From contig NZ_CP049780.1 of NCBI RefSeq assembly GCF_011193355.1, positions 2,718,069 through 2,782,068 of the forward strand: DNA of 64,000 bases. The letters are read 5' to 3'. The position numbers were made by a program, and so were the translations under genes. The DNA comes from Streptomyces sp. JB150 (lineage in GTDB: Bacteria; Actinomycetota; Actinomycetes; Streptomycetales; Streptomycetaceae). Position 1 is the first letter of the stretch. Every line of letters starts with the position of its first letter. The notes below the pieces were generated by a model. The model was not told the DNA's origin. It ran no database searches and saw only the letters and a list, made by a program, of their open reading frames with translations. Below are positions 36,474-54,892 of the stretch, in pieces.

Positions 36474-37484
36474 ATGCCGCAGTCCGAGTCACCAGGCATC
36501 GAGGCATCCGTACGGACCCGGCTGCGCTGGTGGACCGAGCTGCCCCTGATCGTCCTCGTCTACGCCTGCTACTCCGCGGGCCGGCTCCTCGCGCGCGGTG
36601 ACGTCGCCACCGCCGTCGACCACGGCCTGGCCATCCTGCGGATCGAGAAGGCCCTGCACCTCAACTTCGAGCACCCGCTGAACCGCCTGTTCACGCGGGA
36701 GGCCTGGATAGGCATACCGGCGGACTTCTGGTACGCCTCGCTGCACTACCTGGTCACCCCGGCGCTCCTGATCTGGATCTTCCGCTCACGCACCGTGCAC
36801 TACCGCGCGGCCCGCACCTGGCTGATGACCTCGACCTTCATCGGCCTGATCGGCTTCACCCTGCTGCCCACCTGCCCGCCCCGCCTGCTGTCGGCGGGAC
36901 ACGGCTTCGTGGACACCATGGCCCACTACAGCGCGTACGGCTGGTGGGGCGGCGAGGCGAGCGCGCCGCGCGGGCTGGGCGGCATGACCAACCAGTACGC
37001 GGCGATGCCGAGCCTGCACGTCGGCTGGTCGCTGTGGTGCGGCGTCATGCTGTGGCGGTACGGCGGGACGCGGCTGGCGAAGACCGCCGCCGTGGTGTAC
37101 CCGCTGGTGACGACGATCGTGGTGATGGGCACCGCGAACCACTACTTCCTCGACGCGGTCGCGGGCGCCGCCGTGATGGGCGCCGGGCTGCTGCTCGCCC
37201 CGTACGTGATGCGCTGCGCGGACCGGGTCAAGGCTCGCCTGACGACCCGTGCCGCCCTCGTCCCCGCGGCCGCCGCACCCGTCGGCACGCCGCCCGTCGG
37301 CGCACCGGCCACGGCGGTCCCGGCGGTCCCGGTGGCCACCGCGTCCTCGATTGTCAGTGACGAATGCCAGACTTCGGCGGGTGAGCGAATTCCACGGCAG
37401 CGCGAGTCACGGTTCGGACCGGAAGCCGGGCCGAGTGCCGCACCCTCGGAGGCAGGGGGCGGCGCTCCGGCACCGGCTCGCTGA
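36474..37484 (+). CDS. PAP2-family membrane phosphatase/phosphotransferase
   Basis: 336 residues, with GGGGGAGGG before the ATG. About six membrane segments carry the acid-phosphatase motifs: TCPPRL as the degenerate first motif, AMPSLHVGWS (PSxH) and NHYFLDAVAG (H...D). This arrangement is that of the inositol-phosphorylceramide synthase/phosphatidylinositol-phosphate group (AUR1-like) seen in actinobacteria, acting on lipid phosphates. The C-terminal 90 residues are a disordered Ala/Pro tail. The 3' end overlaps the next gene by about 100 bases in another frame. Confidence 0.82.
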   Translation: MPQSESPGIEASVRTRLRWWTELPLIVLVYACYSAGRLLARGDVATAVDHGLAILRIEKALHLNFEHPLNRLFTREAWIGIPADFWYASLHYLVTPALLIWIFRSRTVHYRAARTWLMTSTFIGLIGFTLLPTCPPRLLSAGHGFVDTMAHYSAYGWWGGEASAPRGLGGMTNQYAAMPSLHVGWSLWCGVMLWRYGGTRLAKTAAVVYPLVTTIVVMGTANHYFLDAVAGAAVMGAGLLLAPYVMRCADRVKARLTTRAALVPAAAAPVGTPPVGAPATAVPAVPVATASSIVSDECQTSAGERIPRQRESRFGPEAGPSAAPSEAGGGAPAPAR

Positions 37485-38589
37485 GCTGCGCGGTCCCGAC
37501 GTACCGGCCAAGGCGCTCGACGCGCGTGCCCTCGCGGCGCTCGCCGCGAACCCCGGCTGCGCGCGGCGCGCCGTCCTCGACGGGGCCGGGGTGGACAAGA
37601 CGAGACTGGCGGACGCGCTGGGCTCGCCGTCCGCCTTCGGGCAGTCGCAGTTCGCCCTGACCCGCGGCAACGCGTTCGAGGCGCGGGTGAAGGCGGACGG
37701 CGGCGCGGAGCTGGTGCGGCTGGCGCACCGGAAGCTGGATCCGGGCGCCGAGCCGCCGGAGCGGGCGGCGGTGCCGGACCTGTCCGCGTCCGGCCCCGAG
37801 GGCCGGGCGGCGCGGACGGCGCTGGCGCTGCGGGAGGCCGTCGAGGCGGGCGGCTGGACGCTGCTGGACCATCCGATGCTCGCCCTCGACGTCGCCGGGT
37901 CCCCCGCGTTCCTGGAGCCGGACGCGGTGGTCGTGCACCCGGACGGCAGCTGGACGGTCGTGGAGATCAAGTCGTTCCCGATGCTGGACGGCTCCGCGGA
38001 CCCGGCGAAGGTGGGCGCCGCGGCCCGGCAGGCGGCGGTGTACGTGCTGGCGCTGGAGGACGTCGCGGCCCGCCTGGACCCCGCCCCGCGCGTGCGGCAC
38101 CGGATCCTGCTGGTGTGCCCCAAGGACTTCTCCAACCTGCCCGCCGCGTCCGCGGTGGACGTGCGCAAGCAGCGCGCGGTGACCCGCCGCCAGCTGGCGC
38201 GGCTCACCCGGATCGAGGACATCGTCGACGCGCTCCCCGAGGGCACCTGCTTCTCCCCCGAGCTGCCGGCCGCCGAGCTGACCGCCGCCGTCGAGGCGGT
38301 GCCGGCGACGTACGCGCCGGAGTGCCTGTCCGCGTGCGAGCTGGCCTTCCACTGCCGGGAGCGGTCCCGCGCGGCCGGCGCGGTGACCTCGCTGGGCCGC
38401 GCGGTCCGCGCCGAGCTGGGCGGACTGACCACCGTCGGCGCGGTCCTGTCGGCGGCCCGCGGCGAGACCGGCGACCCGGCCGACCCGGCGGTCGCCGCCC
38501 TGCGCCGCGCGGCCCGCCTCCGCGCGGAGGCTCTGGCCACCGCGGACGCCGCGGGTGCCGCCACCGCGGAGGTCGCCCCGTGTCCCTGA
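37381..38589 (+). CDS. RecB/Cas4-like PD-(D/E)XK nuclease with predicted Fe-S cluster
   Basis: 402 residues from GTG 37381; this start overlaps the PAP2 gene by 104 bases, and GTG 37435 is a shorter alternative. Nuclease motifs in order: GNAFEARV (Glu100), EPDAVVV (Asp181), VVEIKSF (Glu195-x-Lys197) and QAAVYVLAL (Gln217-x3-Tyr221), the RecB-family QhxxY motif. Cys60, then Cys315-x3-Cys319-x5-Cys325, closely match the four-cysteine Fe-S staple of Cas4 and AddB nucleases. It probably cuts DNA single strands. Its stop overlaps the next gene by 10 bases and an SF1 helicase is third, so the three products probably act together. Confidence 0.82.
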   Translation: MSEFHGSASHGSDRKPGRVPHPRRQGAALRHRLAELRGPDVPAKALDARALAALAANPGCARRAVLDGAGVDKTRLADALGSPSAFGQSQFALTRGNAFEARVKADGGAELVRLAHRKLDPGAEPPERAAVPDLSASGPEGRAARTALALREAVEAGGWTLLDHPMLALDVAGSPAFLEPDAVVVHPDGSWTVVEIKSFPMLDGSADPAKVGAAARQAAVYVLALEDVAARLDPAPRVRHRILLVCPKDFSNLPAASAVDVRKQRAVTRRQLARLTRIEDIVDALPEGTCFSPELPAAELTAAVEAVPATYAPECLSACELAFHCRERSRAAGAVTSLGRAVRAELGGLTTVGAVLSAARGETGDPADPAVAALRRAARLRAEALATADAAGAATAEVAPCP

Positions 38590-40175
38590 TCGCCACCCTC
38601 GCCCGGCTCGAGGCCGTCGACACCGGCCGGGCCCAGCCCGCCGCCACCGTGCGCCACCGCCACCTGTCCGAGCGGCCGCTGGTCCTCGTGCCGCTGACCA
38701 CCGCCGGTGAGGCGGGGGCCCCGCTCGGCGCGCTGGTCGGCACCGACCGGGACGCGCCCCGCCTGCTCGTCGTCCCGCAGCCGCGCGACCGGGACCTGCG
38801 GTTCGCGTTCCTCGCCGACCTGGCGGACGTCGTCCTGCCGTACATCGACGGGTACGCGGACGCCGTCGAGGCCGCCGAGCGCACCGAGACCGACCCGGAG
38901 ACCGGCAAGCGCGTCAAGGTCGAGGTCGACCTGTGCGCGGACGCGCCGCAGCTGATCGTGCCGAGCCGCGCGGGCATCGACTTCGTACGGCTGCTGGGGC
39001 GGTCCATGCGCTTTCGGCGTACGGCCGAGCAGGACCCGCAAACGCCGCATCCGGCGCCCCCGCGGGTGCCGCTGCTGGGCCGCTGGCTGACGCACTACGC
39101 GGAGCGGTCCCGGGTGCCGGGCTCGTCGCTGCTGCTGGCCGTGACCGACGTGCTGGCCCGGCACTGGGCGACCGGTCAGTCCGGCCTGGAGGACCAGCAC
39201 CTGGGCGCGCTGCTCGCCTGGATCGACCCGCCGGAGGGCGTGCGCGGCGACGAGGCGGCGCTGCGCGCGGAGCTGGCCCGGGACGAGCGGGGCCAGCTGC
39301 GCTGCCCGCCGGCCGGCCCGGCCACCGACCCGGCGTTCGACAACAGGCTGCTCGCCCCGGCGATCGAGCGCTACGACCGTGCGCGCGGTGCCCTCGCCGC
39401 CGCCGAGGACGGTCCGGAGGCCGACGCGCGGCTCGCTGCCGTCACTGCCGCCGAGCGGGAGATCCGCGCCCTGGTGGAGAGTGTCACCCGTCCCACCTGG
39501 GACGCGGTGTGGCGGGGCCTGGACCTGCTGCGGGCGCTGCCCGAGGGCGGGCACGTCGAGGAGCGCTGGACGCGCGACCGGTGGTCCTTCACCGGGCACC
39601 GCGACCGCGTGCTGTCCGGCGAGCCGCCGCAGCCGCGCCACGACGACGCGGTGACCGCGGCGAACAAGCTCGCCACGCGGGAGCGGGAGCAGGCCCGGCT
39701 GGAGGCGCAGGAGGCTTTGGACGATCCGCTGGTGATGGCGGGGCGGCGGCTGGCCGGCGAGGCGTTCGCGGGCGAGGTCGTCGACGTGGAGATGGCATAC
39801 AGCGAGGGCAAGCGTCCGAGCCCGCGCCCGCTGGTCACCGTCCGCACGGAGGACCGGCCGCACCTCGGGGAGCGGGCGAAGGTGTACCGCTCGCTGGGCG
39901 GCAGGCCGCAGTCCGCCGAGTTCGTGGCCGCCGAGGAGGACGGCGCCCTGGTCGTCCTGCGCGTCCTCGACAAGATGGGCCGCGGCAAGGAGCCGGAGCC
40001 GGGTTCGGTGCCGGAGAAGGGCGACCGCCTGTGCTGGACGCTGTTCGAGCACGAGCAGCGCGGCGGGGCCAAGCTGCCCGACCCGGAGGACACCCCGTGG
40101 ACGCACGGCGGACCCCCCGGCGAGGAGCCCGCCCCCGAACCCGCCGACCCCGTGACCGAGGAGGACCTCCTGTGA
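38580..40175 (+). CDS. Protein of unknown function in the nuclease-helicase operon
   Basis: 531 residues from GTG 38580, inside the last codons of the nuclease gene. It has no signal peptide or membrane segment. The N-terminal third is beta-rich (LVVPQPRDRDLRFAFLADLA) with conserved-looking acidic positions. The middle is helical (AVTDVLARHWATGQSGLEDQ). The C-terminal part (FAGEVVDVEMAYSEGKRPSP to RTEDRPHL) suggests a beta-barrel nucleic-acid-binding domain. It ends GTGA-overlapping the helicase start. I recognise no named family. Tight coupling between nuclease and helicase implies a scaffold or DNA-binding partner, which is inference. Confidence 0.75.
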   Translation: MSLIATLARLEAVDTGRAQPAATVRHRHLSERPLVLVPLTTAGEAGAPLGALVGTDRDAPRLLVVPQPRDRDLRFAFLADLADVVLPYIDGYADAVEAAERTETDPETGKRVKVEVDLCADAPQLIVPSRAGIDFVRLLGRSMRFRRTAEQDPQTPHPAPPRVPLLGRWLTHYAERSRVPGSSLLLAVTDVLARHWATGQSGLEDQHLGALLAWIDPPEGVRGDEAALRAELARDERGQLRCPPAGPATDPAFDNRLLAPAIERYDRARGALAAAEDGPEADARLAAVTAAEREIRALVESVTRPTWDAVWRGLDLLRALPEGGHVEERWTRDRWSFTGHRDRVLSGEPPQPRHDDAVTAANKLATREREQARLEAQEALDDPLVMAGRRLAGEAFAGEVVDVEMAYSEGKRPSPRPLVTVRTEDRPHLGERAKVYRSLGGRPQSAEFVAAEEDGALVVLRVLDKMGRGKEPEPGSVPEKGDRLCWTLFEHEQRGGAKLPDPEDTPWTHGGPPGEEPAPEPADPVTEEDLL

Positions 40176-41590
40176 CCGCCGAGGCCGCCGCCACCGCCCC
40201 CGGTACACCGTCCGACCCCCGCGCCGCCACGACCTCCCCCACTCCCGGCTCCCCTCTCGCCTCCCCCGTCGACCCGGCGACCGCCGCCGCGCGGGCCACC
40301 GACGCGATCCTCCGTGACACCCTGCACGGCCCGGACCGCGGTGTCGTCGTGGACTCCCCGCCGGGCGCCGGCAAGTCCACCCTCGTGGTGCGGGCGGCGC
40401 TGGAGCTGGCCGAGGCGGGCCGGCCGCTGATGGTGGTGGCGCAGACCAACGCGCAGGTCGACGACCTGGTGCTGCGGCTCGCCGAGAAGAACCCCGAGCT
40501 GCCGGTGGGCCGTCTGCACAGCAGCGACGCCGACCCGTACGACAAGGCGCTCGACGAGCTGCCGCAGGTCCGTACGTCGGCGAAGGCCGCCGACCTCACC
40601 GGTCTGCCCGTGGTCCTCTCCACCGCCGCGAAGTGGGCCCACGTCAAGGCCGACGAGCCGTGGCGGCACGCGATCGTCGACGAGGCGTACCAGATGCGCT
40701 CGGACGCGCTGCTCGCCGTCGCCGGGCTGTTCGAGCGGGCGCTGTTCGTGGGCGACCCGGGCCAGCTCGACCCGTTCGCGATCGTCGGCAGCGAGCAGTG
40801 GGCGGGGCTGTCGTACGACCCGTCGGCGTCCGCGGTCACCACGCTGCTCGCGCACAACCCGGGGCTGCCGCAGCACCGGCTGCCGGTGTCCTGGCGGCTG
40901 CCCGCCTCCGCGGCGCCGCTGGTCTCGGACGCCTTCTACCCGTACACGCCGTTCCGCAGCGGCACCGGCCACGGCGACCGCCGGCTGGCCTTCGCGGTGC
41001 CGTCGGACGGCTCGGGCCCGGACCGGGTGATCGACGAGGCCGCCGCGTCGGGCTGGGGCCTGCTGGAGCTGCCCGCGCGGCACACCCCGCGCACCGACCC
41101 GGAGGCGGTGCGGGCGGTGGCGGTGGTGGTGCGCCGGCTGCTGGACCGCGGCGGTGCGGCCACCTCCGAGCGTTCTCCCGGTCCGGCTCCGCTGACCGCC
41201 GACCGGATCGCCGTGGGCACCGCCCACCGCGACCAGGCGGCGGCCGTCCGCGCGGCCCTCGCCGAGCTGGGTGTGCGCGATGTCACCGTGGACACCGCGA
41301 ACCGGCTCCAGGGGCGGGAGTACGACGTGACGGTCGTCCTGCACCCGCTCTCCGGCCGCCCCGACGCGACCGCCTTCCACCTGGAGACGGGCCGGCTGTG
41401 CGTGCTCGCCTCCCGGCACCGGCACGCGTGCATCGTGGTGTGCCGCGCGGGCGTGGGCGAGCTGCTGGACGACTATCCGTCGACGGAGCCGGTGCAGCTG
41501 GGGACACTGGTGAAGTTCCCGGACGGCTGGGAGGCGAACCACGCGGTCCTGGCGCACCTGGCGGAGCACCGGGTGAGCTGGCGGCCGTAG
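40172..41590 (+). CDS. Superfamily 1 DNA/RNA helicase
   Basis: 472 residues from GTG 40172, preceded by GAGGAGG. After a 35-residue disordered head, Walker A is DSPPGAGKST (Lys68), motif Ia VVAQTNAQVDDLV, Walker B IVDEAYQM (Asp170-Glu171), motif III GDPGQLDPF, motif V DTANRLQGREYDVTVV and motif VI ASRHRHACIVV. The order fits Upf1/Dna2-like SF1 helicases. The protein is small, with few accessory insertions. It is the last gene of the three-gene operon. Translocation coupled to the RecB-like nuclease is the natural model, as in AddAB. Confidence 0.85.
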   Translation: MTAEAAATAPGTPSDPRAATTSPTPGSPLASPVDPATAAARATDAILRDTLHGPDRGVVVDSPPGAGKSTLVVRAALELAEAGRPLMVVAQTNAQVDDLVLRLAEKNPELPVGRLHSSDADPYDKALDELPQVRTSAKAADLTGLPVVLSTAAKWAHVKADEPWRHAIVDEAYQMRSDALLAVAGLFERALFVGDPGQLDPFAIVGSEQWAGLSYDPSASAVTTLLAHNPGLPQHRLPVSWRLPASAAPLVSDAFYPYTPFRSGTGHGDRRLAFAVPSDGSGPDRVIDEAAASGWGLLELPARHTPRTDPEAVRAVAVVVRRLLDRGGAATSERSPGPAPLTADRIAVGTAHRDQAAAVRAALAELGVRDVTVDTANRLQGREYDVTVVLHPLSGRPDATAFHLETGRLCVLASRHRHACIVVCRAGVGELLDDYPSTEPVQLGTLVKFPDGWEANHAVLAHLAEHRVSWRP

Positions 41591-41640
41591 GACCCGCCAC
41601 CGGGTGAGCCGGCGGCCCGCCACCGGGTGAGTGGGCGGCC
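41567..41640. repeat. Three tandem copies of a helicase-tail sequence
   Basis: CACCGGGTGAGCTGGCGGCC, the last codons of the helicase gene, recurs beyond the stop at 41598-41617 and 41621-41640 with one or two changes. The copies are 31 and 23 bases apart, indicating local duplication of the gene end. Each copy could form part of a small hairpin. Confidence 0.75.
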
Positions 41641-41750
41641 GCGGGGGGGCGCGCGGGGGGCGCCTCGGTCCACCAGGGAATGAACCCCCCGCCACCTCCC
41701 GTTGACGCCCATGACCCGACCGCATGGCGACGAGAGCAGGAGGCCCCACC

Positions 41751-42878
41751 GTGGCGGCAGACGACACCCGGGACGCCGAGACCCGCACCGGCGAAGGCGA
41801 CGGCATCCAAGGCACCGCCCACGGCTCCGCCCCCGTCCCCCTGTCCGTCCTGGACCTGGTCGCGGTCGGCGCCGGCCACACCTCCACGGACGCGCTGCGC
41901 ACCAGCGTCGCCCTGGCCCGGCTGGCGGAGTCCCGCGGCTTCCACCGCTACTGGGTCGCCGAGCACCACTCGATGCCGGGCGTCGCGTCGTCCTCGCCCG
42001 CGGTGATCCTCGCCCACCTCGCCGCCCACACCGGCCGCATCCGCCTGGGCTCGGGCGGGGTGATGCTGCCCAACCACGCGCCGCTGGTGATCGCGGAGCA
42101 GTTCGGCACCCTGGAGGCCATGGCGCCGGGCCGGATCGACCTCGGCCTCGGGCGCGCCCCCGGCACGGACGGGGCGACCGCGGCGGCGCTGCGCCGCACG
42201 GACCGGCCGGATGAGGCGGCGGACGAGTTCCCGCGGCTGCTGTCCGAGCTGACCCGGTTCCTGGACGACGACTTCCCCGACGGCCACCCGTACCGGCGCA
42301 TCCACGCCGTCCCGGGCCCCGTGCAGGGCACCTCCCCCGGCGGTGTGCAGTCCCCGCACCGCCCGCCCATCTGGCTGCTGGGCTCCTCCGGCTACAGCGC
42401 CCGGCTGGCGGGTCTGCTGGGCCTGCCGTTCGCGTTCGCCCACCACTTCTCGGCGCAGAACACCATCCCGGCGCTGGATCTGTACCGGGAGTCCTTCAAG
42501 CCGTCCGGGGTGCTGGCCGAGCCGTACGCGCTGATCGGTGTCTCGGCGCTGGCCGCGGACGAGGAGCGGGTGGCGCGGCGCGAGGTGCGGGCGGCCGTGC
42601 TGAGCATGGTGCGGCTGCGCACCGGGCGGCCCGGACTGGTGCCGAGCCCCCAGGAGGCGGAGGCGTACGAGTTCTCGCCGCTGGAGCGGGAGTTCGCGCA
42701 GCAGTGGAGCGCGAACGTCATCCACGGCACCGCGGACGAGGTCCGTACCGGCCTGGACGATCTGCAGAAGCGCACCGGCGCCGACGAGTTGATGATCACG
42801 GCGAGCACGCCGACCGGCGAGGTGCGCGTGCGCAGCTACGAACTCATCGCGGACGCCTACGGGTTTCCGGCGGCCTGA
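41751..42878 (+). CDS. LLM-class (luciferase-like) flavin-dependent oxidoreductase
   Basis: 375 residues from GTG 41751, chosen for AGGAGG 7 bases upstream; ATG 41724 is in frame but unsupported. After 25 disordered residues the TIM-barrel luciferase-like fold starts at PLSVLDLVAVGAGHTSTDAL. RYWVAEHHSMPGVASSSPAV and RIRLGSGGVMLPNHAPLVIA are signatures of this MsnO8/YhbW-like subgroup. Such enzymes use FMNH2 and oxygen; the substrate is unknown. It converges with cdgA, and their ends overlap by about 20 bases (42857-42878). Confidence 0.87.
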   Translation: MAADDTRDAETRTGEGDGIQGTAHGSAPVPLSVLDLVAVGAGHTSTDALRTSVALARLAESRGFHRYWVAEHHSMPGVASSSPAVILAHLAAHTGRIRLGSGGVMLPNHAPLVIAEQFGTLEAMAPGRIDLGLGRAPGTDGATAAALRRTDRPDEAADEFPRLLSELTRFLDDDFPDGHPYRRIHAVPGPVQGTSPGGVQSPHRPPIWLLGSSGYSARLAGLLGLPFAFAHHFSAQNTIPALDLYRESFKPSGVLAEPYALIGVSALAADEERVARREVRAAVLSMVRLRTGRPGLVPSPQEAEAYEFSPLEREFAQQWSANVIHGTADEVRTGLDDLQKRTGADELMITASTPTGEVRVRSYELIADAYGFPAA

Positions 42879-46389: not shown

Positions 46390-46411
46390 AGGTCAGCGAC
46401 CTAATCGCTAG

Positions 46412-46485
46412 TGCGCCGCCAGGGACTCGAACCCCGGACCCGCTGATTAAGAGTCAGCTGCTCTAACCAACTGAGCTAGCGGCGC
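46412..46485 (-). tRNA. tRNA-Lys (anticodon CTT), copy 1
   Basis: The 74-base cloverleaf has acceptor stem GCGCCGC/GCGGCGC, D arm TAGCTCAGTTGGTTAGAGC, anticodon loop with CTT inside ACTCTTAAT, and a T arm with GGTTCGAGTCC; CCA is not encoded. It is identical to the copies at 51124 and 54811. Its 5' end overlaps the stop region of the upstream CDS by 10 bases. Confidence 0.97.
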
Positions 46486-47045
46486 CTGCTGACGTCGTAG
46501 ACCTTAGCATCCTGGTCGGCGGGAGGCGAAATCGATATCCGCACCGCCGCCCGGGCCGCCCGGACGGCCGCCCAGAGCAGCACCTCCGGGCCCGGCAGCC
46601 AGGGGTGGCGGGTGTCGGGGGCGACGATCCAGCGCGCCTCCGCGGTCACGCCCGCCGCCGGGGGGCCGACCGGCGGGGGGACGGTCACGGCGTCCCCGGT
46701 GCCGTGGCACAGCAGTGGCGGGATCTCGCCGGTGCGTCCGTGGCCGCTCCACTCCTCCCACTCCATCAGCGAGGGCAGCCGCTGGGCCGTGCCCGGCGCG
46801 GCGAACAGCAGGACGCGGCCCCGGAAGGCGGCCACCGGACCCGTGCCCGGCCCGTCCTCCCACAGCCGGTCGAGCATGCGGCGCCCGAAGACGGCGGGCG
46901 CGCTCACCACGTCGAAGGCGGTGCCGCAGGGCAGCACGGCCGGGGCGTCGGGCCGTTCCTCCCACAGGGCACGGGTGCTGCGCGGATACGTTCCTGCCGA
47001 GACGAGCCAGTCGACTCCGTCGGCGGTGACTGTGCTGCTGCTCAT
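46476..47045 (-). CDS. Conserved protein, possible primase-polymerase N-terminal-like fold
   Basis: 189 residues from ATG 47045; only a weak GGGTG precedes it. The sequence (LPCGTAFDVVSAPAVFGRRM, RVLLFAAPGTAQRL, WIVAPDTRHPWLPGPEVLLW) resembles small actinobacterial proteins often labelled bifunctional DNA primase/polymerase N-terminal. The catalytic acidic pair of true prim-pols is not obvious, so activity is doubtful. The TAG stop lies inside the tRNA-Lys gene on the same strand, so mRNA and tRNA overlap by 10 bases, which implies tRNA processing cuts the mRNA end or that the two are cotranscribed. Confidence 0.65.
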   Translation of the reverse strand: MSSSTVTADGVDWLVSAGTYPRSTRALWEERPDAPAVLPCGTAFDVVSAPAVFGRRMLDRLWEDGPGTGPVAAFRGRVLLFAAPGTAQRLPSLMEWEEWSGHGRTGEIPPLLCHGTGDAVTVPPPVGPPAAGVTAEARWIVAPDTRHPWLPGPEVLLWAAVRAARAAVRISISPPADQDAKVYDVSRRR

Positions 47046-47137
47046 GTCACCCAGGTCTACCGGGCGTACACGTTCCGTTCCACAGAGTTGCCGGAAACCG
47101 GGACAGGAGACGGTAGGAGCGGGTATCTTGCCCGCCT

Positions 47138-47149
47138 GGCATATGCCAA
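47138..47149. promoter_or_regulatory. Perfect palindrome TGGCATATGCCA, possible operator
   Basis: The 12-base palindrome stands out by being AT-rich at its centre in a GC-rich gap, about 90 bases before the 189-residue gene. No regulator is suggested by the sequence alone. Confidence 0.35.
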
Positions 47150-47220
47150 GCAGATCACCGGGCGGGCACTCGCCCGAACGGGGCCGCTCTCCGGCTGACG
47201 AGCGGGCCGGGGCTTCGAAG

Positions 47221-47412
47221 GGGCGCTCGGGCCGGATGCTCGGGCCAGGAGTCCGAACCGGAATGCTCGGACCAGGCACCCGACCGGGACGCTGGGACCA
47301 GGGCGCTCGGGCCATGCACCCGACCGGGATGCCGAAACCAGGGCGCTCAGACCCGGCGCCCGGACCGGAATGCTCGGACCACGCGCCCGACCGGGATACC
47401 GAGCCCGGGTGC
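47221..47412. repeat. Degenerate tandem repeats of about 27-40 bases
   Basis: Imperfect units built from phrases such as ACCGGAATGCTCGGACCA and CACCCGACCGGGA recur at least six times up to the stop of the next minus-strand gene. They have mixed spacing and no open frame with normal codon use. Confidence 0.65.
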
Positions 47413-47775
47413 TCAGGCCGTGTCGGGCCCCGGCTCGTCCGCCCCCCGCAGCAGGTCGCGGCCGAACTCGACCATCTTCCTGGCGTAGTCCTCGGTCCAC
47501 TCCGCACGGTCGGCGATGTCCGCGGCGGTCAGCCGGTCGAACCGGCGCGGGTCGGCGAGCTGGGCCGCGGCCATCGCCTGGAACTCCATGGCCCGGTCCG
47601 CCGCCGCGCGGAACGCCTGGGTCAGCTCGGTCGCCCGCGTCAGCAGCTCCCGCGGGTCGTCGATGGACTCCAGATCGAAGAAGTGCTCCGGGTCGCCGGC
47701 CGCCTCGGCCGGCTCGAAGAGCAGGGGCGCGGGGCGTAGCCGCGGTTCGTGGCGACGCGGCGTGGGCTCCGCCAT
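47413..47775 (-). CDS. Conserved small helical protein of unknown function
   Basis: 120 residues from ATG 47775, with a near-ideal GAGGAGG 7 bases upstream. It is charged and helical (FFDLESIDDPRELLTRATEL, RAEWTEDYARKMVEFGRDLL), without membrane or signal segments. No family is recognised. It reads towards the repeat region. Confidence 0.7.
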   Translation of the reverse strand: MAEPTPRRHEPRLRPAPLLFEPAEAAGDPEHFFDLESIDDPRELLTRATELTQAFRAAADRAMEFQAMAAAQLADPRRFDRLTAADIADRAEWTEDYARKMVEFGRDLLRGADEPGPDTA

Positions 47776-47912
47776 GTCGTGTCCTCCTCTGACGGACGGA
47801 TCGGCTGGCCCGCCCCCCGACATCGCGGCCGGACCACTCCCATTCTCCCCCGCCCGCGCAAGGCGGCCGCAGGGGTTCGTGCGGGCGCACGCCCGCTCGG
47901 CGGGGGCGGGCC

Positions 47913-48641
47913 TCAGACCTGGACGATCGGCTCCCGGGTGAAGAGGGCGCCGAGGCCGGGGGCGTTCACCCGGCGGTCGGCCAGCCGCAGCGCCTCCCAG
48001 ACGGAGACCTGGTGGGCGGTGAGGACCGGCTTGCCCAGCTCCTTCTCCAGGGCGGTGAGGTGGGAGGCGGTGTGCAGGGCGGTGTCCGGCAGCAGGACCG
48101 CCTCGGCGTCCGCGTGGTCGGCCGCGCGGGCCAGCGCGAACAGCTCGGCCTCGCCCCAGCTGCCGGCCTCGGCGGCGGTGATCCCGGCGGCGTGCACGGC
48201 GACCGGCTCCAGTGCGGCCGCGCGCAGGAAGTCCGCGAAGAGTCCGGCGACGTCGTCCCGGTAGGTCGCGCCGATCGCGACGCGCCGCAGCGCCAGCTCG
48301 CGGCTCGCGTGCACGAACCCGAAGGAGGTCGAGGAGGCCGGCATCCCTGCGGCCACGGCGAGGCCGCGCACCTGCTCGTGGGCGCCCTCCCAGCCGTACG
48401 CGAAGCTGCCGCTGGTGCTGGCCCACACCACGGCCTCGGCGCCGGCGTGCCGCAGTTCCTGGACGCTCGCCGCCAGCCGCTCCGGGGAGCCCATCGCGCG
48501 CAGCCCGTCCTCGCGGCGGGCGTCCTCGCCGCTGTCCGTGTGGACCAGGTCCACCCGGATGTCACTGCCCAGCAGCTGCTCGATACGGGGATAGTCGTCC
48601 TCGGCCGAGTGGCCCGGGTAGAGGAATCCGAGTGCGGTCAT
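47913..48641 (-). CDS. Asp/Glu racemase-superfamily protein (maleate isomerase-like) without cysteines
   Basis: 242 residues from ATG 48641 with AGGAAGG upstream. The two-domain Asp/Glu/hydantoin racemase fold is visible from MTALGFLYPGHSAEDDYPRI, VVWASTSGSFAYG (first catalytic loop) and AVLLPDTALHT (second loop), as in maleate cis-trans isomerases and arylmalonate decarboxylases. In those enzymes one or both loops carry a catalytic cysteine; here the first has Ser/Thr, the second Asp-Thr, and the protein has no cysteine at all. The reaction must differ or be lost. It diverges from a D-2-hydroxyacid dehydrogenase across a repeat array. Confidence 0.78.
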   Translation of the reverse strand: MTALGFLYPGHSAEDDYPRIEQLLGSDIRVDLVHTDSGEDARREDGLRAMGSPERLAASVQELRHAGAEAVVWASTSGSFAYGWEGAHEQVRGLAVAAGMPASSTSFGFVHASRELALRRVAIGATYRDDVAGLFADFLRAAALEPVAVHAAGITAAEAGSWGEAELFALARAADHADAEAVLLPDTALHTASHLTALEKELGKPVLTAHQVSVWEALRLADRRVNAPGLGALFTREPIVQV

Positions 48642-49096
48642 GTCCAGCCTTCCTGCTGTTCTTCCGGCAGCACGGGGGTCGTTCCGGCGGAGCGGGGAGA
48701 CCGTGTGCGCGCCTCCTCGTCCGGCAGAGCCTGGTACGGCTCCACGGCTCGGGTACCCCGTCGGCGCGCCGCCGCCCACATCGTCACTTGGTTGGCCGAG
48801 ATCACCGGATTCCGCGGCCCGTCCCCGCGGGTGCGGGACGGGGGAGGGCACGGGCGCCGACAACGCGCCGTGCGGGAGGCCGTGTTGACGACGCCGGGCC
48901 CGGGTGCGAGCGTGGTGGATCCGCGCATGTCAGACGCGCCCCCGAGAGCCGCCGCAGGTCGGACGCCGCCCGTGAGGACCGGTGCGCGTCGGACGCCGCC
49001 GGCGGACAGCCGGCGTACGTCAGGTGCCGCCGGTGTGAACCGGCGTCCGCCGGACGCCGCCGGTGGGCGCCGGTCCGCTGGGAGAGACGGCTGCCG
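48642..49096. other. Divergent intergenic region with repeat array
   Basis: 455 bases between the racemase-like and dehydrogenase genes. The first 290 bases show no gene; the last part is the tandem array at 48929-49078. A plus-strand frame of 57 codons (ATG 48927) runs through the array but is low-complexity Arg/Pro/Ala and lacks a ribosome site. Confidence 0.5.
48929..49078. repeat. Five tandem 29-31 base degenerate repeats
   Basis: Units begin at 48929, 48958, 48988, 49019 and 49049, each starting GTC(G/A)GACGCCGCC or a variant and continuing into a GGT/GAACCGGCGT-like half. The spacing of about 30 bases equals three DNA turns, and the array ends 18 bases before the dehydrogenase start. 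It may be a multi-site operator or decayed coding repeat. Confidence 0.7.
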
Positions 49097-50047
49097 ATGA
49101 CCGACCCCACCCTGCTCGTCCTGCTGGGCGCCGATCCGCCGCCCCGGCTGGGCCGGCTCACCGGCCGGGCCCGGATCGTGCACACGGACGAGGCGGGGCT
49201 CGCGGCCCGGCTGCCGGAGGCCGACGCGCTGCTCGTGTGGGACTTCACCTCGCACGCCGTGCGCGAGGTGTGGCCGGGCGAGGGGCCCCGGCCGCGCTGG
49301 GTGCACACCGCGAGCGCGGGCGTCGACCATCTGATGTGCCCGGAGCTGACGGTGTCGGACACGGTGGTGACGAACGCGCGCGGGGTGTTCGAGCAGCCCA
49401 TCGCCGAGTACGTGGCCGCGCTCGTGCTGGCGATGGCGAAGGACCTGCCGGGCACGCTGGAGTCGCAGGGGCGCGGCGAGTGGCGGCACCGGGAGACGCT
49501 GCGGGTGGCGGGCACGCGCGCGGTGGTCGTGGGCTCGGGGCCGGTGGGCCGGACGGTGGCGCGGCTGCTGAAGGCGCTCGACATCCGTACGGCGATCGTC
49601 GGCCGCACCCCGCGCACCGGCGTGCACGGCCCGGACGACCTGGACCGGCTGCTCGCGCGCGCCGACTGGGTGATCGCGGCGGCCCCGCTCACCGACGACA
49701 CGCGTGGCATGTTCGACACCCGCCGCTTCGGGGTGTTCCAGCCGTCCGCCCGGTTCGTGAACGTCGGCCGGGGCGCCCTGGTGGACGAGGAGGCGCTGGC
49801 CGCGGCGCTCGCCAAGCGGTGGCTCGCGGGGGCCGCGCTGGACGTCTTCGCCACCGAACCGCTCGGCCCGGACAGCCCGTTGTGGCGGGTGCCGGGGCTG
49901 ATCGTGTCGCCGCACATGAGCGGGGACACGGTGGGCCGGCTGGACGAGCTGGGCGCGCAGTTCGTGGAGCTGTTCGAGCGCTGGGCGGCGGGCCGGCCGC
50001 TGTTCAACGTGGTCGACAAGCGGCGCGGGTACGTGCCGGGGCACTGA
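49097..50047 (+). CDS. D-2-hydroxyacid dehydrogenase
   Basis: 316 residues; GGGAGAG lies about 10 bases before the ATG. NAD(P)-dependent, cytoplasmic. The Rossmann motif is VVGSGPVGRTVARLL; the conserved Arg lies in NVGRGALVDEEAL, the Glu in LDVFATEPLG and the catalytic His in SPHMSGD. The N-terminal substrate domain has TASAGVDHLM. It belongs to the glyoxylate/hydroxypyruvate reductase-like group; the substrate is unknown. With the divergent racemase-like gene and the downstream IclR-type regulator it may form a small 2-hydroxy- or dicarboxylic acid pathway. Confidence 0.88.
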   Translation: MTDPTLLVLLGADPPPRLGRLTGRARIVHTDEAGLAARLPEADALLVWDFTSHAVREVWPGEGPRPRWVHTASAGVDHLMCPELTVSDTVVTNARGVFEQPIAEYVAALVLAMAKDLPGTLESQGRGEWRHRETLRVAGTRAVVVGSGPVGRTVARLLKALDIRTAIVGRTPRTGVHGPDDLDRLLARADWVIAAAPLTDDTRGMFDTRRFGVFQPSARFVNVGRGALVDEEALAAALAKRWLAGAALDVFATEPLGPDSPLWRVPGLIVSPHMSGDTVGRLDELGAQFVELFERWAAGRPLFNVVDKRRGYVPGH

Positions 50048-50244
50048 GCCGCGGCGACCGGCCGGACGAACCGGACGCCCGGCCCGGACGACCCTTGCCG
50101 CCGACATATGCCACCGACCCGACCCCCAGCCGGCAGGGGCGGATTCTCGTCAACAGCCGCTCACTACCGGCCTCTTGCCGGTTATCGTGGAGAGGATCCG
50201 AACAGCGGGTCACGGCACATTGACTGAGCGCACAGGGGGAAACC

Positions 50245-51003
50245 GTGGCGCTGAAGCACGAGCCGACCGCGCCGTACCACTCGGCTCAGGACGCCCTGCG
50301 CGTCCTGGAGACGGTGGCCCGGCACTCCACCGGTGTCACCGACACCGAGATCGCCCGTCACACCGGCCTCGGCACGGAGCGGCTGACCACCCTCCTGCGG
50401 ATGCTGCGTCGTGAGGGATACGTCGAGCAGGTGGCCGACGGGGCGTACGTCGCCGGCGCCGCCCTCGCCCGCCTGGGTTCCGCGCACGGCCGCGACCGGG
50501 CCCTGCGGGACCATCTCCAGCACACCCTGAACCGGCTGCGCGACTCGGTGGGCGCCGCCGTCTACATCAGCCGTTACGTCGACGGGGAGGTCCGGATCAC
50601 CCATTGCGCCGAGAGCCCGGCCACGCCCGCGGTCAACGAGTGGGTGGACTTCCGCTACTCCGCGCACGCCACCGCGGTCGGCAAGAGCCTGCTCGGCCAG
50701 CTCGACCACAACAGCCGCCGCGACCATCTGGCCCGGCACAAGATGGCCCGGCTCACCTCGCGCACGATCACCAGCGACAAGCTGCTGCTCTCCCGCCTGG
50801 AGGCGCAGCCGCCGACGGTGCCGGTGCTCGACCTCCAGGAGTACGCGGTGGGCACGGTCTGCGCGGCCGTCCCGATCACCGCCGGGTCCTCCGTGGGCTG
50901 CCTCGCGCTGTCCCTGCCGGTGGAGCACGCGCACCGGCTGCGCCAGGCGGCGGAGACGCTGAACCGGAACGCGGCGCCGGTCCTGCTGTCCCTGGCGATC
51001 TAG
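50245..51003 (+). CDS. IclR-family transcriptional regulator
   Basis: 252 residues from GTG 50245 with AGGGGGA upstream. An N-terminal winged helix (ALRVLETVARHSTGVTDTEI, TTLLRMLRREGYVEQ) is followed by the IclR effector domain (GAAVYISRYVDGEVRITHCA, YSAHATAVGKSLLGQLD, VGTVCAAVPITAGSSVGCLA). It probably binds a small carboxylate and may control the dehydrogenase and racemase-like genes; the repeat array between those is a candidate target. A tRNA-Lys gene follows. Confidence 0.87.
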   Translation: MALKHEPTAPYHSAQDALRVLETVARHSTGVTDTEIARHTGLGTERLTTLLRMLRREGYVEQVADGAYVAGAALARLGSAHGRDRALRDHLQHTLNRLRDSVGAAVYISRYVDGEVRITHCAESPATPAVNEWVDFRYSAHATAVGKSLLGQLDHNSRRDHLARHKMARLTSRTITSDKLLLSRLEAQPPTVPVLDLQEYAVGTVCAAVPITAGSSVGCLALSLPVEHAHRLRQAAETLNRNAAPVLLSLAI

Positions 51004-51075
51004 CGAGACACCCCGCAGCGGGTGCCGCGCTCTCGCCCTGGTCCCCGGTGGTCACGAGCACCCCCGGGGACCAGG

Positions 51076-51081
51076 TAGTAT
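51076..51081 (+). promoter_or_regulatory. Probable -10 element of tRNA-Lys copy 2
   Basis: TAGTAT lies 42 bases before the tRNA and is preceded by GAGCACCCCC at 51056-51065, as before tRNA-His and tRNA-Lys copy 3. Confidence 0.5.
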
Positions 51082-51123
51082 TTTCTTCGTCGCCGGCCGC
51101 GAAGAGCGGAAGGCGAGAGTCAT

Positions 51124-51197
51124 GCGCCGCTAGCTCAGTTGGTTAGAGCAGCTGACTCTTAATCAGCGGGTCCGGGGTTCGAGTCCCTGGCGGCGCA
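51124..51197 (+). tRNA. tRNA-Lys (anticodon CTT), copy 2
   Basis: Identical over all 74 bases to the tRNA genes at 46412-46485 and 54811-54884. CCA is not encoded. A terminator hairpin starts 6 bases later. Confidence 0.97.
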
Positions 51198-51203
51198 CAG
51201 CAG

Positions 51204-51234
51204 AGGGCCCCCTCGCGACAAGCGAGGGGGCCCT
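51204..51234. terminator. Terminator of tRNA-Lys copy 2 and of the LPMO gene
   Basis: AGGGCCCCCTCGC and its complement form a 13-base perfect stem around GACAA with a short T run after it. It also lies 12 bases past the stop of the convergent LPMO gene. Confidence 0.87.
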
Positions 51235-51246
51235 TTCCGTTGCCGT

Positions 51247-51852
51247 CTAGAACGTGACGTCCGAGCAGGCGTAGAACGCGTTGCCGGTGTCCGCGATCGT
51301 CCACACCGCGAGGATCACGTGCCGTCCGCTGAGCCCGGACGGCAGCGTGCCGCTGTGCGAGAGGGTCTGCGGCGGGCGCTGGCCGCCGTAGGGCACCGTC
51401 AGGAACGGCGTGAGGTTGAGGTCGGAGCGGGACAGGTTGTGGTTCTGGTTCCAGCCCGGCTTGGTGATGTAGTACTTGAAGTCGGTCGTGGCGTGCATCG
51501 CCGTGAACTGCCAGCGGAAGGTGTAGCTCTGCCCGCCGGTGACCTTGGTGGCCGGCCACGCGCCGCCCGACGGGGTCTTCGGGCTGTCGAGCTGGGCGAA
51601 GCGGGTGTTGTTGCCGGAGCAGAGCTGCCCGTCGGCGGGCCCGGACGCGGGGAAGCCCTTGGGGCCCTCGACGCTCTGCGGCTCCCACTGGATGGCGCCG
51701 CAGTTGGCCACCGTGCCGTTCTGGCACAGCTTCTGCCTGCTGATGGGGAGGTCGGTGTAGCCGTGTCCGGTGGCCGCGCCGGAGGAGAGCACGAGGGCTC
51801 CGGTCGTCGCCAGTCCGACCGCGACCGCGGACAACTTGGTCTTGGTGCGCAT
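51247..51852 (-). CDS. Secreted lytic polysaccharide monooxygenase (AA10/CBM33)
   Basis: 201 residues from ATG 51852 with GAGGAG 7 bases upstream. The signal peptide ends so that His30 (HGYTDLPISRQ) becomes the mature N-terminus, the first copper ligand of the histidine brace; His120 in TAMHATTDF is the second. Four cysteines suit two disulfides. AA10 enzymes oxidatively cleave chitin or cellulose; the single-domain form and GPKGFPASGPADGQ loop are typical of Streptomyces chitin-active proteins, though cellulose cannot be excluded. A DasR-like site upstream supports chitin/GlcNAc control. Confidence 0.92.
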   Translation of the reverse strand: MRTKTKLSAVAVGLATTGALVLSSGAATGHGYTDLPISRQKLCQNGTVANCGAIQWEPQSVEGPKGFPASGPADGQLCSGNNTRFAQLDSPKTPSGGAWPATKVTGGQSYTFRWQFTAMHATTDFKYYITKPGWNQNHNLSRSDLNLTPFLTVPYGGQRPPQTLSHSGTLPSGLSGRHVILAVWTIADTGNAFYACSDVTF

Positions 51853-51907
51853 GCTGCCGCTCCTCGGGGATGTGGGGGAGGTTCGGTGAGCCGTGCAGTG
51901 GTGCACG

Positions 51908-51923
51908 TAGGTCTAGACCAAGT
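51908..51923. promoter_or_regulatory. DasR-like operator (dre) upstream of the LPMO gene
   Basis: The perfect 10-base palindrome GGTCTAGACC (51910-51919) with flanks TA and AAGT matches the core of the DasR-responsive element ACTGGTCTAGACCAGT. It lies about 60 bases before the LPMO start. Confidence 0.75.
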
Positions 51924-52049
51924 CCCAGACTATTGCCGATAGTTGAACATGTCCATACCAATAGCGGAGTGAGGGGCGTCCCGGCACCCCCGTGCGCGAC
52001 GCGCGCCCGCGAGGTCACGCCCCCGCCTCACGCACGCCCCGCACCGCGG

Positions 52050-53168
52050 TCACCCGCCCGTCTCCCCCCGCCCCGCGCAGAACGCCACCGTCAGGTCCTT
52101 CACGAGCGCCTTCCGCTCGTAGTCGTCCAGCTCCACCAGGCCGCGCATGGTCAGCCGGGTCACCGTGTCCTCCACCGAGTCCACCACCGAGGACAGCACG
52201 CTCGCCCGGTGCCGGGCGTCCAGCGCGGCGATCTTGCGGCGGTGCATCGCGGCGGCGACCTCCGGGGCGTACTCGATCCGCACCGGCTGCACCGAGAACA
52301 CCTCCAGGCCCACCGGTGCCGTGTCCGCCGCCACCAGCCGGGTCAGCGTCTCCGCGGTGGCCGGCACCGAGCCGCCCCCGCCCGGCGTCTCCACCGGCAC
52401 CCGGGCCAGCGCCGCCTCCACGCACTCGCGCAGATAGCCCTCGTGGTCCTCCACCCCGAGCACGGCCCGCGCGGTGTCCCGCACCCGCCACACCACCAGC
52501 ACCACCACCCGCAGCGCCACCCCGCTGCCGTCCGAGGCGGGCATCGGCTCGCTGCGCCAGTGCCGCAGCCGCACGTCCACCCGGCGGCGCAGCAGCAGCG
52601 GGTTGACCCAGAGCAGGCCGGTGCGGCGGACGGTCCCCCGGTAGCGGCCGAACAGGTCCAGCACCCAGGCCCGCCCGGTCCGGCCCCGGGCCAGCCCGCC
52701 GAACCCGAACAGCCCGAGCGCCCCGGCCCCGGCGTACGCCGCCCACTGCGCGGGGCCCAGTCCGGCCGGCGCCGCGGCGGGCAGCCCGAGCGCGGCGACC
52801 GCGAGCGGCGGCAGCGTGCCCGCCCACCAGGAGGTGGCCAGCGCGCCGGCCGCCCCGGCCGTGCCGGCCAGCACGCCCACCGCACCGGGCAGCACCCGGG
52901 CGGGCCGCTCGGCCAGCTCCGGGTCGACCTCGGGCACCGGCCGGGTCCGCGCGGGGGCGGGGCGCCGCAGCCGCGGCTGTTCGCCGGTGCCCTGCCGGCG
53001 GCCGACCACGGCCGGCCTGAGCGGCACCGGCGCCGGGTCGGGGTCGTCCCGGAAGAGCAGGTGGACGGGGATCTCGGTGGTCGCCTCGTTCTGGATGAGG
53101 CGGCCCGGGCGGACTGTGCCGCCGTCGGTGCCGCCGGGGTCGGGCGTCTGTGCAGGGGTCGTACTCAT
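52050..53168 (-). CDS. SPFH/Band 7 domain membrane protein
   Basis: 372 residues from ATG 53168 with GGAGG 6 bases upstream. A Pro/Arg-rich cytoplasmic head precedes two hydrophobic segments at about 95-140. The SPFH domain follows (RGTVRRTGLLWVNPLLLRRR, ALRVVVLVVWRVRDTARAVL, VFSVQPVRIEYAPEVAAAMH, RRKIAALDARH). Such proteins form membrane microdomain rings and may scaffold proteases or stress responses; the role here is unknown. It is downstream of the cell-wall hydrolase-like gene in the same direction. Confidence 0.87.
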   Translation of the reverse strand: MSTTPAQTPDPGGTDGGTVRPGRLIQNEATTEIPVHLLFRDDPDPAPVPLRPAVVGRRQGTGEQPRLRRPAPARTRPVPEVDPELAERPARVLPGAVGVLAGTAGAAGALATSWWAGTLPPLAVAALGLPAAAPAGLGPAQWAAYAGAGALGLFGFGGLARGRTGRAWVLDLFGRYRGTVRRTGLLWVNPLLLRRRVDVRLRHWRSEPMPASDGSGVALRVVVLVVWRVRDTARAVLGVEDHEGYLRECVEAALARVPVETPGGGGSVPATAETLTRLVAADTAPVGLEVFSVQPVRIEYAPEVAAAMHRRKIAALDARHRASVLSSVVDSVEDTVTRLTMRGLVELDDYERKALVKDLTVAFCAGRGETGG

Positions 53169-53270
53169 GCGTGCCTCCAGCCTCCGCGCCAGATGCGTCA
53201 CAGATGGGCCGTACGGGTCGTCCGTACCGGGGTCGTGCGGGGTGGGCGTACGAGGTGGTCGTACGGGTGG

Positions 53271-54614
53271 TCAGGAGAAGAGCCGGCGCCACGTCTCCGG
53301 GCCGGGGTAGCCGTCCGCCGCGCCGCCGCGCCAGCCCTGGGCGCGCTGGAAGGCCTCGACGTTGCGCCGGTCCGCCTCGCCCCAGAGGGGTCCGGGCCCG
53401 GTGGTGTAGTACCGGCCGAACCCCTTCTTCACGAGCTGCCGGCCGAGCAGCGTGACGTACTCGTTGCGGGCGCCCGGCCGGAACATCGCCCGGCCGGGGA
53501 AGGCCGGGACCCGCCCCGCCTGGGCCCCTGACACGCCCGCCGTCCCCGCGGTGACGTCCCGGCCCCGGCCGCTGATCAGCAGGTCCCAGGTCTTCGGTCC
53601 GGGCAGCCCGTCCGCCGCCGCGCCCGTCCAGCCCTGGGCCAGCTGGAACGCCTGGGTCGCCCTGCGGTCGGCCTCGGTCCAGCGCGGGCCGGGCCCCGAG
53701 GCGTAGAAGCGCCCGGCGCCGCGCTGGACCAGCATCCGGCCGAGGAGGGTGACGTACGGGTTGTTCGCGCCGGGACCGAAGTAGGCCACACCGGGGAAGG
53801 GCGTGGCCACCGAGCCGCCCCCGCCTCCCCCGGCCCCTCCGCCACCGCCTCCCCCGGCCGCCCCGCCCGGCTGGGCACCCGGGGTGCCCGACGCCTTCAG
53901 CCCCTTGTAGCGGTAGGCGACATAGCGGTCGGAGTGCGTCCAGTAGGCGTAGGGGGTGGCCTGCCCGCGGGCGTGCGGGCGGGTCGACTCGTAGGCGATG
54001 TAGAAGGAACGGGTGTGGTCCGTCCAGCCGCCGAAGATCACCACGTGGGAGCCTCGCTCGGGGTCCGCCGGATTGTGGAAGAGGAGGATGTCGCCGGGCT
54101 GCAGCTCGTCCTTGCCGATGCGCACGCCGTACTGGTGCAGGGTGCCCGTCCACTCGTTGCCCGGCAGGCCCCAGGCCATGGAGACGAACCCGGAGCAGTC
54201 CTGCCGGTACCCGTCGGCCCAGTACCGGGTCATGCTGTACGGCACCCGCGCCGCGACCCAGGTCTTGGCCCGCCGGATGATCTCCGCCCGGGTGGTGGCG
54301 GGCGCCCTCGCCGGGAGGTTCGGGGTGGCCGGTTTGCCCGCCGGGCCGTGCAGGGGCGCCTTGCTCCCCTGCGGGGTCTCGGGCTCGTCACCTGCGGGAA
54401 CGCCGGGGTGCTGGGGGGCGTGCGAGGCGGCGAGGGCCGGTGCCGGCGTGGGGGCCGCGGCGAGAGCGGCCGCCGTCGCGGCGGTGACGGCCACGGCACG
54501 GGGGGTGAGGGAAAGGCCCCCCGGAGAGGGCGGCAGGGCGCGGCGCGCGGTGACGCAGCCGGGGCAGTCGCAGTCGCGCGGGGGATCGAGCTCTGCGAAA
54601 ACCGGAGTCTCCAT
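53271..54614 (-). CDS. Secreted NlpC/P60- or CHAP-like peptidoglycan hydrolase with two C-terminal binding repeats
   Basis: 447 residues from ATG 54614 with GAGGGG upstream. A cysteine-rich start (RDCDCPGCVTARRAL) precedes a hydrophobic segment at about 35-60. The domain at about 110-250 has QDCSGFVSMAWG (catalytic Cys) and GSHVVIFGGW (His), as in NlpC/P60 or CHAP amidases. A poly-glycine stretch of about 20 residues then leads to two repeats of about 75 residues (YFGPGANNPYVTLLGRMLV and FRPGARNEYVTLLGRQLV) that end in GPKTWDLL and GPETWRRL; these are peptidoglycan-binding-like modules. Probably cell-wall associated. Confidence 0.83.
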   Translation of the reverse strand: METPVFAELDPPRDCDCPGCVTARRALPPSPGGLSLTPRAVAVTAATAAALAAAPTPAPALAASHAPQHPGVPAGDEPETPQGSKAPLHGPAGKPATPNLPARAPATTRAEIIRRAKTWVAARVPYSMTRYWADGYRQDCSGFVSMAWGLPGNEWTGTLHQYGVRIGKDELQPGDILLFHNPADPERGSHVVIFGGWTDHTRSFYIAYESTRPHARGQATPYAYWTHSDRYVAYRYKGLKASGTPGAQPGGAAGGGGGGGAGGGGGGSVATPFPGVAYFGPGANNPYVTLLGRMLVQRGAGRFYASGPGPRWTEADRRATQAFQLAQGWTGAAADGLPGPKTWDLLISGRGRDVTAGTAGVSGAQAGRVPAFPGRAMFRPGARNEYVTLLGRQLVKKGFGRYYTTGPGPLWGEADRRNVEAFQRAQGWRGGAADGYPGPETWRRLFS

Positions 54615-54795: not shown

Positions 54796-54810
54796 TATCG
54801 ACGTCAGCAG

Positions 54811-54884: not shown

Positions 54885-54892
54885 CAGACGGA

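Follow-up and report, generated by a model that had tools for sequence, protein, structure and literature searches.

The 64,000-nucleotide stretch analyzed here, called the window, comes from contig NZ_CP049780.1 of Streptomyces sp. JB150 (positions 2,718,069 to 2,782,068). It carries three genes in one direction, designated A, B and C, whose products resemble parts of a helicase-nuclease (Table 1). A and B share 10 bases and B and C share four (GTGA), as a preliminary description made from the DNA letters had stated, and both the coordinates and the overlaps were confirmed. The overlapping genes suggest that the translation of A, B and C is coupled. The third-position GC fractions of the three genes were 0.958, 0.959 and 0.962, respectively, which are of the coding type. 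The start of A is uncertain, because its first GTG falls 104 bases within the upstream PAP2 open reading frame (ORF) and a second GTG follows (Table 1). The first 20 residues of the A model had low confidence. No promoter-like or terminator-like sites were found in 37100-41800, a result that is weakly informative for actinobacteria.

Table 1. Positions of the three genes and their predicted parts in the window, and of related genes on plasmids
Feature	Position	Strand	Length (amino acids)	Assignment
Gene A	37381..38589	+	402	Predicted iron-staple RecB/Cas4-type PD-(D/E)XK nuclease subunit; alternative GTG at 37435
Gene B	38580..40175	+	531	Putative partner subunit without sequence family
Gene C	40172..41590	+	472	Predicted SF1B helicase motor core (AAA_11/AAA_12), related to DNA2/SMUBP-2
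Cys60 codon of A	37558..37560	+		First predicted Fe-S ligand, NPxC motif
Codons 315-325 of A (Cys315, Cys319, Cys325)	38323..38355	+		C-x3-C-x5-C, predicted Fe-S ligands
A residues 27-332	37459..38376	+		Align with Cas4 7mi4; EXO5, AdnA and Dna2 align over roughly this part
B residues 31 to ~330	38670..39569	+		Predicted model; fold resembling an archaeal family-B DNA polymerase 3'-5' exonuclease domain (RNase H-like)
B residues 379-490	39714..40049	+		Predicted model; beta-barrel like that preceding the motor in Dna2, Senataxin, Sen1 and Upf1
Walker A of C, PPGAGKST, residues 63-70	40358..40381	+
B-like and C-like genes, no annotated A, plasmid	L127:7587-10146
B-like and C-like genes, no annotated A, plasmid	L128:7577-10113
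B-like and C-like genes, no annotated A, plasmid	L130:4497-7137
B-like and C-like genes, no annotated A, plasmid	L131:4585-7143

The residues of A that had been picked out earlier (Glu100, Asp181, Glu195-x-Lys197, Gln217-x3-Tyr221, Cys60 and Cys315/319/325) are correctly numbered and constrained. In an alignment of 77 sequences all of them were invariant except C60, which was kept in at least 90%. Candidates from Foldseek were compared with the predicted model of A by VIA-align, and the model matched Cas4, EXO5, AdnA and Dna2, and also the nuclease domains of AddAB. The PD-(D/E)XK core, on which the earlier assignment depended, is present by fold. No Pfam or NCBIfam family was matched in A up to E 1, and the Cas4 family models matched neither A nor any of 14 relatives, two of which were matched by PDDEXK_1 (best E 0.013). 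A profile search of PDB sequences with A returned two designed proteins (E 9e-11 and 3e-7) over short stretches, taken as chance, and apart from these nothing below E 0.08. The C-x3-C-x5-C spacing is one residue longer than the C-x2-C-x5-C (C212, C215, C221) of the fused TM0106 proteins considered below. With this qualification, the conserved residues and the predicted fold identify A as an iron-staple RecB/Cas4-type PD-(D/E)XK nuclease, for which an iron-sulfur (Fe-S) cluster is predicted, in line with the preliminary description.

In C, the Walker A stretch is accompanied by DEAY (170-173), GDPGQ, SWRLP, VDTANRLQGRE and SRHR, all of which we take to be helicase motifs. Pfam AAA_11 and AAA_12 were matched above cut-off, and the UvrD-helicase model gave E 0.046, below its cut-off. 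When a 13-sequence profile of C was compared with PDB chains, DNA2 was at the top (E 5.1e-14), followed by SMUBP-2, the putative deoxyribonuclease 9kwf and Upf1 relatives. These matches bear out the SF1 helicase proposed earlier and, at the level of sequence, C is an SF1B (Upf1/DNA2-like) motor core. Only ~60 residues precede Walker A, and therefore the barrel and stalk of Dna2 and Upf1 are not in C.

For B, which had been described as a protein of no recognized family, this still holds by sequence: Pfam and NCBIfam gave no family, RNase_H_2 did not match, and a PDB sequence profile search gave nothing below E 1. It holds less well by fold, since the predicted model contains an RNase H-like domain followed by a beta-barrel (Table 1). 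The barrel scored equally against Senataxin, Sen1 and Dna2. No acidic set was invariant over all 14 diverse B sequences, some acidic sets being kept in actinomycetes, and the RNase H-like domain is probably inactive.

The predicted module order agrees with that of the TM0106 (TIGR03491) proteins of actinobacteria, in which a nuclease, an RNase_H_2 domain, a linker region and an SF1B motor are fused in a single chain of ~1,130-1,250 amino acids (aa), in place of the three genes seen here. In a fused example (locus L143), RNase_H_2 lay at 319-495; PDDEXK_1 was matched in one of three scanned. By hhalign, C aligned with the TM0106 motor at E 2.4e-26 and A with the nuclease at E 0.014, a weak match in a plausible register, while B showed no homology to the middle region in two tests. 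TM0106 proteins were present in 15 of 60 genomes of the class but in none of the four Streptomyces among them, and TIGR03491 matched neither A nor the source genome. By analogy, A-B-C would be the TM0106 order cut between the nuclease and the RNase H-like domain and again between the barrel and the motor. Sequence homology is strong for C, weak for A and was not found for B, so that for two of the subunits the likeness to a split DNA2/TM0106-like machine is drawn from fold and order. Eukaryotic DNA2 has an Fe-S nuclease, a barrel and an SF1B motor in the order predicted for A-B-C, but in one chain, and we know of no RNase H-like domain between its nuclease and barrel.

The nearest characterized relative, by analogy, is Bad from Geobacillus stearothermophilus, a monomeric Fe-S protein with a 5'-to-3' motor and a single-stranded DNA endonuclease activity, which has a central domain of unknown structure and, in Geobacilli, a methyltransferase neighbor (PMC7430649). 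According to the available part of that paper, DNA2 had been held to be exclusively eukaryotic until Bad, Bad itself is rare and sporadic in bacteria, and a second class occurs in Mycobacteria and Rhodococcus. Bad and A-B-C have in common an iron-staple RecB nuclease, an SF1B motor and an extra central region, whereas Bad is one rare and sporadic chain and A-B-C consists of three genes that are core in Streptomyces; the two are likened by description, not by sequence.

AddAB and AdnAB also couple a RecB-type nuclease to an SF1 motor, and A resembles AdnA and the AddAB nuclease domains. These enzymes are two large chains with UvrD-type motors. Membership of A-B-C in this group was rejected, as C is of the AAA_11/AAA_12 type and A and C are separate genes. 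Of the preliminary description, the grouping of a RecB/Cas4-type Fe-S-type nuclease with an SF1 helicase and one further protein as a set is supported; the nearest logic is that of DNA2, Bad and TM0106 rather than of AddAB or AdnAB, because C is a Upf1/DNA2-like motor and the B model has a barrel of the kind that goes with it. A differs from Cas4 in its length of 402 aa, in having no Cas4 family match and in being accompanied by B and C in the loci seen. PMC5704561 treats fusions and linkages of Cas4-like proteins with UvrD and COG1205 helicases; the A-B-C set is not mentioned in its available text. In the literature searched, which was mostly non-subscription and without supplementary files, no description of the three-gene set, or of a four-gene version of it, was found. 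No described repair complex contained A-B-C, and the earlier statement that no named system has this composition stands within the same scope. We estimate a probability of about 0.6 that A, B and C together form a single DNA2-like helicase-nuclease as its three subunits, the case for B being made from its predicted fold and the gene order.

A scan of species genomes gave 437 stretches with A relatives, and the 80 most similar to a Nocardia query are called the named loci; they belong to Nocardia, Actinomadura, Dactylosporangium and one metagenome-assembled genome (Actinomycetes bacterium). The order A-B-C, as separate genes, was found in 79 of these 80, and the contig of the remaining one ends ~70 bases past B; this conservation excludes a chance arrangement. 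When 61 genomes were searched, B was found in all 37 Streptomyces genomes, including the source genome and G001 (79% complete), which has B residues 1-179 only. Outside the genus, it was found in 7 of 15 other genomes of the order and in none of nine others of the class. The closest proteins to A and B among the matches listed were from Streptomyces. A-B-C is core in Streptomyces. Its interpretation as a mobile element in the window was ruled out on this ground and on the result that no A relative was found in viral contigs or phage records, where 19 viral-contig pattern matches included no true relatives.

Among 396 genomes of the phylum, 14 had a solid B and the same 14 had A. Weak B matches in G232 and G264 (E 7-9e-4) were dropped, with no A, B or C there at E 1e-3. 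In G261, A and B are adjacent and C lies ~36 kb off on the same contig. Remote A proteins were present in two more genomes. One of them (G309, locus L028) retains A-B-C with 4-base overlaps, and its A appeared in the protein search as Acidimicrobiales bacterium mtb01; in the other (G222, locus L027), A and C flank a B-like frame with a 35% alignment to the L028 B. This last set adjoins a 937-aa UvrD-PDDEXK fusion and, judged by eye, a tyrosine-recombinase-like ORF (L027:2109-10154).

The source genome has two adjacent PDDEXK_1 matches near 5.03 Mb, both in long open frames, as expected for AdnAB and consistent with it by sequence, and one further match at 1.40 Mb; SbcD is at 0.96 Mb. AdnAB is the main helicase-nuclease of Streptomyces, as described in the available part of PMC5869714, and therefore A-B-C would be additional to it.

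A four-gene version, X-A-B-C, was also found. Of the 80 named loci, 78 encode a protein X (~260-360 aa, no clear family) immediately upstream of A; the exceptions are L107, at a contig edge, and L123. The idea that X is a fourth gene missing from the set in the window was discarded, as X had no match in the window or the source genome. Divergent X-A-B-C copies were present in 32 of 392 Streptomyces genomes, so that X is accessory in this genus. The neighbors of these copies, one locus per genome, were surveyed by tblastn, and for L042, L045 and L129 the identities were backed by PADLOC and Pfam. In 17 of the 32 loci the SbcCD (Mre11-Rad50) genes lie divergently beside X (L043 with SbcD only), and in 11 the pPIWI-RE genes PDDEXK-REase-DinG/Z take this position; four loci (L162, L165, L173, L174) have neither. 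Eight of the 17 SbcCD-linked loci have Wadjet genes after C, type I in L149, L151, L152 and L153 and type II, queried with JetA2 and JetB2 only, in L043, L045, L154 and L155. SbcCD also accompanies the set in three loci (L039-L041) that belong to another family of the order. Both Streptomyces plasmids found with X-A-B-C carry Wadjet after C as well. In one of them (plasmid p1 of Streptomyces sp. WAC00288), the SbcCD genes are annotated as short ORFs near the record end (L133:170-2251) and X-A-B-C and Wadjet are annotated at full length.

On the other hand, X, SbcCD, Wadjet and pPIWI-RE were found at none of 20 control core loci within the stretch fetched, which in one case was only 12.3 kb. 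The defense reading in the preliminary description fits the neighborhood of the divergent X-A-B-C copies of Streptomyces, 28 of 32 of which adjoin SbcCD or pPIWI-RE, and not the window copy, which is core in the genus. Queries with DinG/Z, REase and PDDEXK gave no tblastn match in the window up to E 1e-5, the PIWI protein not being a query. No PADLOC model matched A or B, and C gave partial cross-matches to the helicase parts of the Mokosh and DpdJ models and weakly to GajB.

The catalytic positions of A were intact in all 17 SbcCD-linked and all 20 control core copies, and two or three of the four catalytic residues were altered in all 11 pPIWI-linked copies. Eight of the latter carry the changes E100H, E195L and K197R; the other three carry D181Q, K197R and Y221S, with E100 and E195 kept. 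Among the four partnerless loci, A was altered in two (L162 and L165) and intact in two. C60, C315, C319 and C325 were kept in all 32 copies, including the 13 with altered A. Fisher's test of the state of A against the partner gave 5e-8 for rows that are not independent by kinship, because all 13 altered A rows fall in one clade (100/99). In the same tree the core rows form one clade (100/100) and the SbcCD-linked rows one weakly supported clade (82/47). The tree has 75 rows, with nine of the 80 named loci added and L036, L177 and L180 (partial or second cuts) left out.

pPIWI-RE is described in the available part of PMC3702460 as a three-gene operon without X-A-B-C. In the present loci its DinG/Z, REase and PDDEXK genes adjoin X-A-B-C, and in L156 the PIWI protein itself is also present. 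In this locus (L156:837-18424), pPIWI, DinG/Z, REase and PDDEXK are followed by X, in divergent orientation, then by A with altered catalytic residues, B and C; next comes a protein of 1069 aa that weakly matches type III restriction. The whole is possibly an extended pPIWI-RE system. In L162 (L162:2514-12944), the altered A copy adjoins, in place of pPIWI-RE, a Snf2/HKD helicase-like protein (PADLOC C3a139, E 1.2e-107) and a protein of 561 aa matched by no PADLOC model.

Replicon positions were taken in assemblies with one to three contigs. The distance of SbcCD-linked copies from a contig end is 4.7 kb in G547/L150 and, at both ends, 6.7 kb in G750/L153, 24.1 kb in G507/L170 and 24.3 kb in G581/L172; in G562 it is ~523 kb. 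Six pPIWI-linked copies (G009, G036, G629, G646, G703, G718) are >1 Mb from contig ends. The equal distances at both ends suggest that terminal inverted repeats carry the SbcCD-X-A-B-C islands in G750, G507 and G581. Accessory genes cluster at Streptomyces chromosome ends anyway, and the terminal position is therefore taken as a lead only.

C relatives were also matched in 48 plasmid records, and five from Rhodococcus and Mycolicibacterium were inspected. In four of them (L127, L128, L130 and L131; Table 1) a protein of 392-404 aa precedes the C relative, which shows 33-35% identity; no A is annotated, and both genes lie behind those for a MoxR/AAA ATPase and a VWA-like protein (DUF2201 in L127) and behind an ORF of 63-67 aa. 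In the fifth, a protein of the 392-404 aa type is split into two ORFs beside an IS110 transposase. By hhalign this protein aligned with B at E 1.3e-5 (probability 81%, 253 columns), single-sequence phmmer gave nothing, and homology to the TM0106 middle region, sought once, was not found. From these profile matches, B-C may be a conserved motor unit, and the MoxR/VWA loci are possibly a second system built on it.

Elsewhere in the window, three tRNA-Lys(CTT) genes lie inside 8.5 kb (46411-54885), the first adjoining a Prim-Pol-domain ORF (46479-47507). This is a possible integration site.

In the helicase-nuclease that we infer, A would be the Fe-S nuclease, C the SF1B motor and B an adaptor between them. 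The RNase H/DEDD-like domain of B would probably guide DNA rather than cut it, and its barrel would dock on or feed the motor in the manner of the Dna2/Upf1 barrel. On the model of DNA2 and Bad, the complex would load on a free 5' end or flap, move 5'-to-3' on single-stranded DNA and cut the strand that it occupies. A role in DNA-end or 5'-flap processing, recruited into defense elsewhere, is likely. The core version in Streptomyces would process chromosomal ends or flaps beside AdnAB, and the X-A-B-C version of the genus would work beside either pPIWI-RE or SbcCD, the latter often accompanied by Wadjet. Beside pPIWI-RE, the altered A would probably be kept as a structural Fe-S subunit and the neighboring PD-(D/E)XK protein could cut. 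A wider proposal, which we hold tentatively and at somewhat less than even odds, is that A-B-C represents a new class of DNA-end machine, the bacterial counterpart of the Mre11-Rad50 and Dna2 resection pair. It would be a housekeeping enzyme in Streptomyces and, with X, an interchangeable processing core of immune systems (SbcCD/Wadjet or pPIWI-RE), in which the pPIWI-RE form has its own nuclease off and passes cutting to a partner. The generality of this picture is weakened by the 80 named loci, mostly from Nocardia and Actinomadura, where SbcCD and Wadjet type I, the only partner systems queried, were not matched.

The association of 28 of the 32 X-A-B-C copies with SbcCD (some with Wadjet) or pPIWI-RE could also mean that A-B-C is primarily an immune module in all forms, degrading invading DNA, and that the Streptomyces core copy is a domesticated defense system. 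The two plasmid copies with Wadjet, the UvrD-PDDEXK fusion beside L027 and the cross-matches of C to Mokosh, DpdJ and GajB point the same way. We regard this as unlikely, though it is the strongest of the alternatives: the core copy occurs in every one of the 37 genus genomes, these partners were not found in the stretches fetched for the 20 core loci, and neither viral relatives of A nor PADLOC models for A or B were found. An action on RNA:DNA hybrids, in which the RNase H-like fold and the nuclease would clear R-loops, is less probable still. The equal barrel scores for Senataxin/Sen1 and the matches of C to SMUBP-2 and Upf1 agree with it, and pPIWI-RE has been proposed to act on R-loops via DinG in the available part of PMC3702460. 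However, A resembles the DNA-processing enzymes Cas4, EXO5, AdnA and Dna2, DNA2 is the best profile match of C, and the acidic residues of B lack a set invariant across its diverse sequences. The partner systems of X-A-B-C, moreover, act on DNA ends or incoming DNA.

Least probable of all, and by a wide step from the immune reading, is that A, B and C are independent proteins held together by operon structure only, with C a stand-alone helicase and A a stand-alone nuclease. The plasmids with B-like and C-like genes beside MoxR and VWA but no A, and the altered catalytic residues of A in the pPIWI-linked clade, would suit such independence. Yet co-occurrence and order persist across a deep split, C is retained after leaving the operon in G261, the barrel that C lacks would be supplied by B, and altered A is kept with its cysteines in all 13 such rows. 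The reading as one DNA2-like helicase-nuclease remains the one we prefer.

If this reading is true, a split DNA2-like system belongs to the core genome of Streptomyces, which are genetically tractable organisms with linear chromosomes, and its separate subunits could be removed and tested one by one. The altered catalytic residues where pPIWI-RE replaces SbcCD would be a natural experiment on which part must cut, and one shared DNA-handling core would link Mre11-Rad50, Wadjet and pPIWI-RE.

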